A stretch of 64,000 bases of DNA from Verrucomicrobiales bacterium (lineage in GTDB: Bacteria; Verrucomicrobiota; Verrucomicrobiia; Limisphaerales; JAYPXF01). A program made the translations under genes and the position numbers. Positions 2,161 through 3,658 of the stretch are shown here, in pieces. The stretch is taken from assembly GCA_002715965.1 (NCBI GenBank), contig PBAL01000072.1, positions 1-64,000 on the forward strand, read 5' to 3'. A model generated the notes under the pieces. The model had not been told where the DNA came from. It did no database searches and saw only the letters and a program-made list of their open reading frames with translations. Every line of letters begins with the position of its first letter. The first letter of the stretch is position 1.

Positions 2161-2638
2161 ATGTACAAGGAATACGGACAGGCATTTCGGAGGTTGTTTT
2201 CATTGAAGGTGGAAAACGTTCCCCCCCCAATACTCGCTCTTTGACGGGAAGAGCGGATCCCTCCGACCCGGTGAGCGCGCCTACTTCCATGAGATTACAT
2301 CGAGGCTGACCTGTTGGATCGTTCTGTCGATCCCACCCAAGGACATACAAGTCTTCAACGTCGAGATCGGCTGGTCACGTTTCAGCGGTTTTCCATCGGC
2401 TCGCGATAGTATTGACTCACCAGCGGAGCGCATCAATGACGCCGAGCACTTGAGCCGGCTCCCGCTCATGTATCTGCGCGATGACGAATACTGGGAGATT
2501 GAGCCCTACTGCAAAGTGATCGTGCCACGTCCGTCCTCGACTGAGGTGGTAGAAGAACGAGTCCTGCCCTTGGTGCAGTATGCTGTGGCGAAGATTCGAG
2601 AGCATTGGATCCGCTTCGCCGGTCAGTTGAAGACATAG
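2161..2638 (+). pseudogene. Hypothetical gene frameshifted at a C8 run
   Basis: Reading from the ATG at 2161 gives MYKEYGQAFRRLFSLKVENV and then enters a run of eight C at 2221-2228, after which the frame stops at 2242-2244. One frame over, the sequence is open without interruption from the C run to the TAG at 2636-2638. That reading includes 'FDGKSGSLRPGERAYFHEI' and 'LMYLRDDEYWEIEPYCKV'. With seven C instead of eight, a continuous protein of about 158 residues results. The composition looks like real protein on both sides. I do not recognise the family. The break is either an indel error in a homopolymer, a slippage-prone switch, or a recent inactivation. Confidence 0.6.
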
Positions 2639-2720
2639 TATCCCACGTGTTCCATCTTCTTGACCAGCGCTGGCGAGTCGCATCGCACCCCACGCCATCA
2701 TCCGAAGAACATCGAAGTTT

Positions 2721-2768
2721 GATAATGAGACTCATTCTCAAACTATATTGATAATGAGACTCATTCTC
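2721..2768 (+). promoter_or_regulatory. Two tandem Fur boxes
   Basis: Two identical 19-bp sites, GATAATGAGACTCATTCTC, lie at 2721-2739 and 2750-2768, in direct repeat with a 29-bp pitch. Each matches 16 of 19 positions of the classical Fur box and is itself nearly palindromic. The repeat extends a further 8 bases (AAACTATA) after each box. The second box sits between a possible -35 (TTGATA, 2748-2753) and -10 (TATACT, 2773-2778). Fur-type iron repression is therefore the natural reading. The next gene is bacterioferritin. Confidence 0.82.
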
Positions 2769-2788
2769 AAACTATACTTTCATAGTTT
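2748..2788 (+). promoter_or_regulatory. Putative sigma70-like promoter with overlapping palindrome
   Basis: The candidate is TTGATA at 2748-2753 and TATACT at 2773-2778, with a 19-bp spacer, longer than ideal. A 7-bp inverted repeat (AAACTAT / ATAGTTT) at 2769-2775 and 2782-2788 surrounds the -10 and probable start site. A transcript from here would carry a leader of about 220 bases before bacterioferritin. The 2790-3008 stretch holds no gene I can defend. One short Cys-rich frame near 2840-2990 is not recognisable. Confidence 0.4.
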
Positions 2789-3008
2789 GGCCATTACGTA
2801 GAAGCAACCAGCGCTTGTTGAAGGAAGCACAAAGCCAAATTGTAGACGCCAAGACTGCGGACGGTATGCGTATTGCTGTGACTACCGGGCGATTCGCAAG
2901 CTGTGCAGTGTGCGCCGGCTTCATAATCTAATCTATCGAGAGACATTTTTATTTTAAACAATTACACCTTCGCTTGCCAACATCACTTTCAGATGTTACT
3001 TGTTTTCT

Positions 3009-3485
3009 ATGAAAGGGAACGAACAGGTCATTGAAGCGCTTAACGCTGGCCTTACCATCGAACTCACCGCCATCAACCAGTATTTCATCGCCTCCAAGAT
3101 GTGTGCGAACTGGGGTCTTGATGGCTTGGCAGGCCACTTCTATCAGGAGTCGATCGAAGAGATGAAACACGCGGAGGAAGTGATCGACCGCGTCTTGTAC
3201 CTCGACGGTGTTCCGGCGATTTCCCGCTATGACGTGATCAACGTCGGAGCAACACCCAAGGAACAGATTGAAGGAAGCCTCGCATTGGAAACCAAGGGTG
3301 TCGTGGCATACCAGGAAGGCATCAAGCTCTGTCTCGAAGTCGGAGATGCCGGCAGCAGGGATTTGATGGAACGAATGGTCGTGGAATCCGAATCCAGCAT
3401 CGACTGGGCGGAGGCTCAGCTCGACCTCATCAAGATGATGGGCGTCGAAAACTACCTCTCCCAGCAGATGAAGAAAGCAGGCTGA
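3009..3485 (+). CDS. bfr: Bacterioferritin
   Basis: A 158-residue bacterioferritin, an iron-storing 24-mer cage with a ferroxidase centre in each four-helix subunit. The start is the ATG at 3009 (MKGNEQVIEALN, the family N-terminus), not the in-frame TTG at 3000. Ferroxidase ligands are visible: Glu in 'LTIELTAINQY', 'EEMKHAEEVIDRVLYLDGVP' carrying the ExxH motif, and 'VVESESSIDWAE'. The haem-ligand Met seen in classical Bfr would be expected near residue 52; the Met in 'EEMKHAE' belongs to that region. The length matches the family. Two Fur boxes lie 240-290 bp upstream and a clean terminator follows, so it is probably a single-gene iron-responsive unit. Confidence 0.95.
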   Translation: MKGNEQVIEALNAGLTIELTAINQYFIASKMCANWGLDGLAGHFYQESIEEMKHAEEVIDRVLYLDGVPAISRYDVINVGATPKEQIEGSLALETKGVVAYQEGIKLCLEVGDAGSRDLMERMVVESESSIDWAEAQLDLIKMMGVENYLSQQMKKAG

Positions 3486-3506
3486 GCGACGCGACAGCCT
3501 TTGCGA

Positions 3507-3535
3507 AACGCCGGGGAAATGCCCGGCGTTTTTTT
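3507..3535 (+). terminator. Rho-independent terminator after bfr
   Basis: A perfect 9-bp stem AACGCCGGG / CCCGGCGTT (3507-3515 and 3522-3530) with a 6-base loop is followed by an uninterrupted T run to 3535. It lies 22 bp after the bfr stop. Confidence 0.93.
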
Positions 3536-3658
3536 GTGCGTTCAAACGTGCCGCAACAGTTGAAGTTGATCTGTTGGCCTGCCTTGCATAGCTTCTTGGT
3601 GAAATAATTGGACTTCATCGGTCGTCCCCAAATTGAATTGAATTATCGAACGCCACAT

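Follow-up and report, generated by a model that had tools for sequence, protein, structure and literature searches.

Fur control of both bfr, which encodes bacterioferritin (Bfr), and bfd, which encodes the ferredoxin that releases iron from Bfr, is already known in Proteobacteria. In mycobacteria, bfr genes are activated by IdeR from tandem metal-regulator boxes, and RyhB, PrrF, and NrrF are Fur-controlled small RNAs. In Pseudomonas pseudoalcaligenes, a fur mutant is reported to have bfd up 16-fold and bfr down sevenfold (PMC6922518). Our literature searches on Fur boxes and bacterioferritin, the Fur regulon, and ferroxidase in Verrucomicrobia, outside of which most subscription papers fell, found nothing for this phylum.

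Here we analyze a bfr locus from a Verrucomicrobiales bacterium, contained in a window of 64,000 nucleotides (the whole stretch of DNA that was analyzed). The original prediction for this locus pointed to a pair of Fur sites well upstream of bfr and remarked that simple Fur repression of a bacterioferritin gene would be odd, a doubt that we judge to be fair. Comparison with related genomes suggests that the switch originally served a neighboring bfd gene, and that the odd Fur arrangement is probably leftover wiring rather than the sign of a new regulatory RNA.

Predicted Fur boxes upstream of bfr

The 19-mer GATAATGAGACTCATTCTC occurs exactly at positions 2721-2739 and 2750-2768, with no third site in the window at up to three mismatches, and the same search of 100 dinucleotide shuffles of the window returned no matches. 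Each copy is near-palindromic and identical at 16 of 19 positions to the E. coli Fur consensus. In the 21-base form from the motif scans (TGATAATGAGACTCATTCTCA), box 1 lies at 2720-2740 and box 2, which repeats it letter for letter, at 2749-2769, both on the plus strand. Tandem Repeats Finder reported 2719-2776 as 2.0 copies of a period of 29 with 100% matches, which is a perfect 29-bp tandem duplication carrying the box, a -35-like TTGATA, and most of a -10-like element. A scan of the whole source genome (6.08 Mb, 92.7% complete) with TGANAATGAGWCTCATTNTCA at up to three mismatches found four sites, namely the window pair with no mismatches and two sites on contig C20 with three, while a control pattern gave one forward and one reverse match. 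On the basis of the shuffles, the genome scan, and the perfect duplication, we reject a chance origin for the boxes. The two identical, near-consensus sites 29 bp apart are thus as originally described, and so is the great distance to bfr, with 239 bases separating box 2 from the bfr start at 3009.

We consider these very probably to be Fur boxes, because the motif precedes TonB-dependent receptors in three relatives and is found in an iron cluster of the source genome itself. The receptor sites (L167, L174, and L173, with one, two, and three mismatches, respectively) come from genomes G001, G033, and G047, the first of which belongs to the same genus. At up to three mismatches, the motif is present in all six related genomes searched, where it also stands before other genes, including a DUF4198-like gene that scores under the Pfam cut-off; in two genomes it is close to fur-type genes (G002, with a Pfam FUR match, and G145, called by eye). 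The source genome encodes three proteins of the FUR family (on contigs C45, C13, and C14), and its two C20 sites precede two AraC-type regulators, one site also facing a divergent bfd. The C20 iron cluster (L166, 6396-11086) comprises these two regulators, each with a Fur-like box, the divergent bfd, a PepSY_TM protein, and a flavodoxin.

Gene order in related bfr loci

We retained 80 of 133 related loci, of which 52 (L017-L067 and L089) are bfr loci of the verrucomicrobial type that include DNA upstream of the gene. Two further loci (L068 and L069) have no DNA upstream of bfr and were excluded from the verrucomicrobial counts; L052, which is titled Planctomycetales and has a Bfr that is 75% identical, was kept. 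The gene bfd lies directly upstream of bfr on the same strand in 18 of the 52 loci (17 by pattern, plus L019, in which bfd is partly masked), usually with a Fur-like box in front. It lies directly downstream in the same direction in 14 loci and downstream on the opposite strand in four, and in 16 it was recognized at no position, partly through missing data where contigs end at bfr (e.g. L036 and L059). The locus with the closest Bfr (83% identical; L002/L017) has the order Fur box, bfd, bfr, and its box lies 518 bases upstream of bfr. Searches for bfr in the same-genus genome G001 (80% complete) and the same-family genome G002 gave no match and hence no close comparator.

Three of the four opposite-strand loci carry tandem Fur-like boxes spaced by 33 bp before the bfd that faces bfr (L024, 3942-3995; L027, 4644-4697; L035, 3889-3942). 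Many verrucomicrobial Bfd proteins (type-A loci, including L017, L018, L020, and others) also have a Cys-rich tail of approximately CGPCxxCxGCGxxxxLCxC following the CGxCxC motif, which is perhaps a second metal site.

A box matching the window box at 16 or more of 21 positions, in either orientation and within 650 bases upstream of bfr, was found in 38 of the 52 loci, compared to 0-1 of 52 in ten shuffled sets and none of 52 inside the bfr reading frames. This frequency of Fur-like boxes, together with the 14 loci in which bfd follows bfr in the same direction, would fit an alternative in which Fur represses bfr by design, such that the whole bfr-bfd module is induced in iron starvation (e.g. 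for mobilizing stored iron) and the long leader is incidental. We regard such a design as unlikely. In Pseudomonas pseudoalcaligenes, bfd and bfr are regulated in opposite directions (PMC6922518), which speaks against their joint induction.

Promoter-like elements and box classes

Two promoter-like units straddle the boxes on the plus strand. The first (2719-2749; score 10.7) consists of TTGATA at 2719-2724, a non-optimal 19-bp spacer, and TATATT at 2744-2749, and the second (2748-2778; score 10.9) of TTGATA at 2748-2753, the same spacing, and TATACT at 2773-2778, with the -10-like element immediately past box 2. For the original claim that the boxes cover a promoter, the evidence is mixed: promoter-like elements are in place, but their spacing is 19, and a stricter scan of 2600-3600 that allowed spacings of 16-18 returned no plus-strand site. 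The stricter scan did return two minus-strand sites, at 2770-2742 (over box 2) and at 2980-2951, against a shuffle mean of 0.8. We consider it plausible that the boxes cover a candidate promoter.

To place the boxes by sequence, we used 34 bfr boxes (one per locus, out of the 52 loci) and 16 bfd boxes (one per locus, out of the 18 type-A loci, with L046 and L057 omitted); some of these boxes match at only 14-15 of 21 positions. Leave-one-out log-likelihood ratios put 12 of the 16 bfd boxes on the positive side and 31 of the 34 bfr boxes on the negative side. The two window boxes each score +8.5, in the bfd class, alongside +8.8 and +8.7 for the bfd boxes of L017 and L019. Exceptions exist on both sides, in that the bfr box of L031 scores +10.8, more bfd-like than the window boxes, and four of the 16 bfd boxes score negative. 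With these exceptions noted, the window boxes are closer to the repression-type boxes found at bfd and other iron genes than to bfr boxes.

We also compared promoter geometry, scored as the best sigma-70-like site overlapping a box (-10 at +16 to +28) minus the best site downstream of it (-10 at +50 to +78), for 16 bfd boxes, 34 bfr boxes, and nine reference boxes of other iron genes; the ranges and box classes were picked after inspection of the data, and the loci are mutually non-independent. The reference set holds three boxes from L166 (one of them that of C20 bfd), one of the two from L169, and those of L167, L168, L171, L173, and L174, and omits boxes with no clear gene, such as the ones in L170 and L172. 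Box 2 of the window scores +9.6, and box 1 scores -0.1 because the second promoter-like unit falls within its downstream range. The overlapping promoter wins in all nine reference boxes, in seven of the 16 bfd boxes, and in eight of the 34 bfr boxes, the last comprising seven of 18 type-B boxes, none of seven in the L049-type set, and one of nine type-A bfr-proximal boxes. A rank test of bfd and reference boxes against bfr boxes gave p = 2.7e-5, a value that ignores relatedness and the post hoc ranges. An analysis of positional conservation anchored on the boxes recovered the box itself across loci, with no clean promoter in most classes.

Overall, the window pair resembles a repression-type operator, whereas many bfr boxes of the relatives look compatible with activation. 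For Fur repression of bfr by design, the evidence is divided: window box 2 has the geometry of repressed genes, but for 26 of the 34 bfr boxes the downstream promoter-like site outscores the overlapping one, a layout that fits activation better. An opposite alternative is that Fur activates bfr, holo-Fur on the boxes aiding a downstream promoter as has been proposed for the distal bfr Fur box in Pseudomonas. In the relatives, the best -10-like site begins 53-58 bases past the start of the bfr-proximal box in five of nine type-A loci, and 67 bases past the box start in six of seven loci of the L049-type set, positions that would suit such a mechanism. In the window, however, the boxes are more than 200 bases from a weak proximal promoter candidate, overlap a better one, and are bfd-like in sequence class, so that activation appears unlikely there.

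The leader between the boxes and bfr

The boxes are followed by a long plus-strand leader (2785-3008) in which reading frames, Rfam, folding, and hairpin scans revealed no intact bfd, no terminator-like hairpin, and no unusual RNA folding. The original prediction had suggested a small regulatory RNA in 2785-3000 as one example of what the promoter might drive, and an RNA of RyhB-like function between 2785 and about 2960 would be in keeping with the layout, in which roughly 220 bases lacking an intact gene come after a Fur-boxed promoter. The leader nevertheless folds worse than most shuffles (z +1.6, with 194 of 200 shuffles folding at least as well), and an Rfam search of it returned nothing at the gathering score. 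Neither a promoter/terminator scan of 2600-3600 nor a looser rule found a terminator-like hairpin in it, the looser rule being the one that recovers a hairpin past bfr that the first scan had missed. Comparison of the leader DNA with 96 other related genomes gave no long match among the matches listed, the best two of which are to the boxes and the third to a stretch of 30 bases near the leader end (E = 0.007). With no terminator, poor folding, no Rfam match, and no long conserved match among those listed, a small RNA or riboswitch in the leader is unsupported, and we consider control of such an RNA by the boxes to be highly unlikely. The original suggestion that the promoter serves something other than bfr survives in spirit, although the gene in question would be the protein gene bfd, which stands upstream of bfr in 18 of 52 loci.

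The plus-strand frames of the leader contain only short ORFs and no intact Bfd, and on this basis we reject a hidden protein. The only Fer2_BFD match detected in the genome is the C20 bfd, which is likewise behind a Fur-like box. A possible decayed bfd remnant lies at 2853-2913 on the plus strand, where the translation reads DCGRYAYCCDYRAIRKLC and, after a +1 shift, VC, in comparison to IRKLCVC in the intact C20 bfd. A frameshift-tolerant Bfd profile, built from 21 of 43 distinct Bfd-like sequences, scored 45.0 on the plus strand of the leader and 30.2 on the minus strand. The score of 45.0 was reached by 25 of 6000 dinucleotide shuffles (in seven of which the match likewise ran to the C terminus of the profile) and by four of 570 pieces of the window; for an earlier Bfd profile, the leader score was reached by five of 1000 shuffles. 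At the DNA level, 143 of 2000 shuffles did at least as well as the leader in matching the tail of the genome's own C20 bfd; the leader also aligns in a competing register to the 5' part of the L017 bfd, a match reached by 13 of 2000. Moreover, hmmsearch with Bfd scored a minus-strand leader frame at 5.1 bits versus 4.8 bits for the plus strand. Because all three comparisons (by protein profile, frameshift-tolerant profile, and DNA) gave weak matches, some of them in conflicting registers, we do not accept a clear bfd pseudogene as proven; decay of bfd in place within the leader is likely but unproven.

Bacterioferritin and its proximal sequence

The bfr gene (3009-3485, plus strand) encodes a bacterioferritin of 158 aa (TIGR00754, 175.2 bits versus a cut-off of 125.55). 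Its product is the only PF00210 match in the genome at E <= 0.001 and the only ferritin-like protein detected. Directly past the gene, the looser-rule hairpin scan identified an intrinsic-terminator-like hairpin with a T run (3506-3537, plus strand). Elsewhere in the surroundings, the stretch 2106-2638 holds two ORFs whose frames differ around a run of eight C (2221-2228); they look like one frameshifted gene, the frameshift being either a sequencing error or slippage.

The heme ligand Met52 is aligned in the window Bfr. The E. coli type ferroxidase ligands are E18, E51, H54, E94, E127, and H130. In the window Bfr, positions 127 and 130 are both serine (residues 126-130 are encoded at 3384-3398), so that the E. 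coli type ligand set is incomplete. The same two serines are found in all 51 verrucomicrobial relatives (L017-L067), which keep E18, E51, and E94 throughout, H54 in 50 (it is masked in one), and M52 in 50 (Leu in one). Outside the verrucomicrobial group, H occupies position 130 in 24 of 26 loci, and position 127 is split evenly between E and T (13 each); a 47% identical Bfr (L005) from a different genome of the order retains the usual DEEAHIDW. The two serines in 51 of 51 Bfr proteins would be in keeping with Fur repression of bfr by design, as the role of the protein may then not be classical storage. One could go further and picture a verrucomicrobial Bfr subfamily, short of two of the six E. 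coli type ferroxidase ligands, that is Fur-repressed and made in iron-starved cells; such a protein would handle iron together with Bfd instead of being filled as a store when iron is abundant. The window would then represent the extreme state, its bfr lying downstream of two copies of a bfd-type operator. We consider this reading quite unlikely.

A possible bfr-proximal promoter (TTGCCA-17-TACTTG) lies at 2974-3002 on the plus strand, and L017 has TTGCCG-17-TAATTG in the same place. Over the last 60 bases before bfr, the window and L017 are identical at 28 positions in the same register, compared to 12-22 at 12 other offsets, and they have in common the block CGCTTGCC, 38 bases before the ATG. 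A Shine-Dalgarno-like 4-mer is absent before the window bfr and present in eight of the 52 relatives. This promoter may work without the boxes. In the strongest form of this reading, bfr is transcribed mainly from the start-codon-proximal promoter and the boxes hardly matter: TTGCC-17-TA(A/C)TTG is equidistant from the ATG in the two genomes, and the missing Shine-Dalgarno-like sequence would agree with a very short leader. The element has a poor -10-like sequence, however, just two genomes were seen to have it, and Shine-Dalgarno sites may be lacking in verrucomicrobial genes generally. We give a dominant proximal promoter very little credence.

A model for the bfr locus

We hypothesize that the window carries a Fur-repressed promoter of the bfd type that has lost its bfd and now reads into bfr in low iron, an account that we judge to have about as much chance of being right as of being wrong. 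The ancestral arrangement would have been promoter, bfd, bfr, with holo-Fur sitting on the -35 to -10 region and shutting this promoter of the bfd/iron-uptake type, which would fire when iron is scarce. At the window locus, bfd would have been deleted or decayed, an intact copy being kept in the Fur-boxed C20 iron cluster, and the promoter, duplicated as a 29-bp unit, would have been stranded about 240 bases before bfr. Read-through would then produce a low-iron-induced bfr transcript with a long leader, and the weak promoter near the start codon might provide a Fur-independent supply of bfr. This direction of regulation is a prediction from sequence. The boxes, their duplication, the neighbors of bfr in relatives, and the absence of an intact bfd here with one kept elsewhere come directly from the sequence analysis, whereas Fur binding, repression, loss of bfd at this site, read-through, and the proximal promoter are predicted.

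The stranded-promoter model gains support because the closest relative has the order box, bfd, bfr and 18 of 52 loci have bfd directly upstream, because the window boxes classify with bfd boxes (+8.5) and box 2 has a geometry score of +9.6, and because only 25 of 6000 shuffles reach the similarity of the leader to Bfd. Further support comes from the motif at TonB receptors of three relatives and in the C20 cluster, from the Fur-like boxes in 38 of 52 loci, from the positive geometry of all nine reference boxes, and from the tandem boxes at bfd genes that face bfr. The bfd and bfr responses in Pseudomonas pseudoalcaligenes point the same way (PMC6922518). The model is weakened because the bfd remnant is weak and appears in two registers, its profile score also being reached by four of 570 window pieces, with a slightly higher hmmsearch score on the minus strand; because bfd promoters split on geometry (seven of 16 positive) and the class test has its exceptions (L031 and four of 16 bfd boxes); because the loci are not independent and the box classes and geometry ranges were set after inspection; because G001 and G002 offer no bfr for comparison; and because the stricter scan gave no plus-strand promoter and a minus-strand one over box 2.

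Comparison with known systems

The comparison accounts for an apparently backwards Fur site with no need for a novel RNA. It also sketches the distribution of Fur-type boxes at the bfr/bfd module in Verrucomicrobiota. If bfr is truly induced by low iron here, the locus would be an exception to the rule that storage follows iron plenty, tied to an altered ferroxidase site.

With the loci of RyhB, PrrF, and NrrF, the window shares a Fur-boxed promoter and a short stretch without an intact gene, and differs in that no terminator, unusual structure, or conservation was found in its leader. With IdeR at mycobacterial bfr genes, it shares tandem metalloregulator sites before a ferritin gene; the regulator family differs, and the geometry in the window is repression-like.

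Loci with the order box, bfd, bfr in Limisphaerales and elsewhere in Verrucomicrobiota (L017, L018, L028, and L034) have the same motif, the same order apart from bfd, and a close Bfr (83% identical in the closest). They differ in having an intact bfd in between, some with a second box between bfd and bfr, and, unlike the window, they show no identical tandem pair among the listed boxes with at least 16 matches.

Relative to Pseudomonas pseudoalcaligenes (PMC6922518), the window is distinct in placing a bfd-type box pair before bfr with no intact bfd. The two nevertheless have much in common: in both genomes, bfd and bfr lie apart with Fur boxes upstream of each, and the bfd box of Pseudomonas pseudoalcaligenes fits repression (PMC6922518), as the bfd-type boxes appear to do here.
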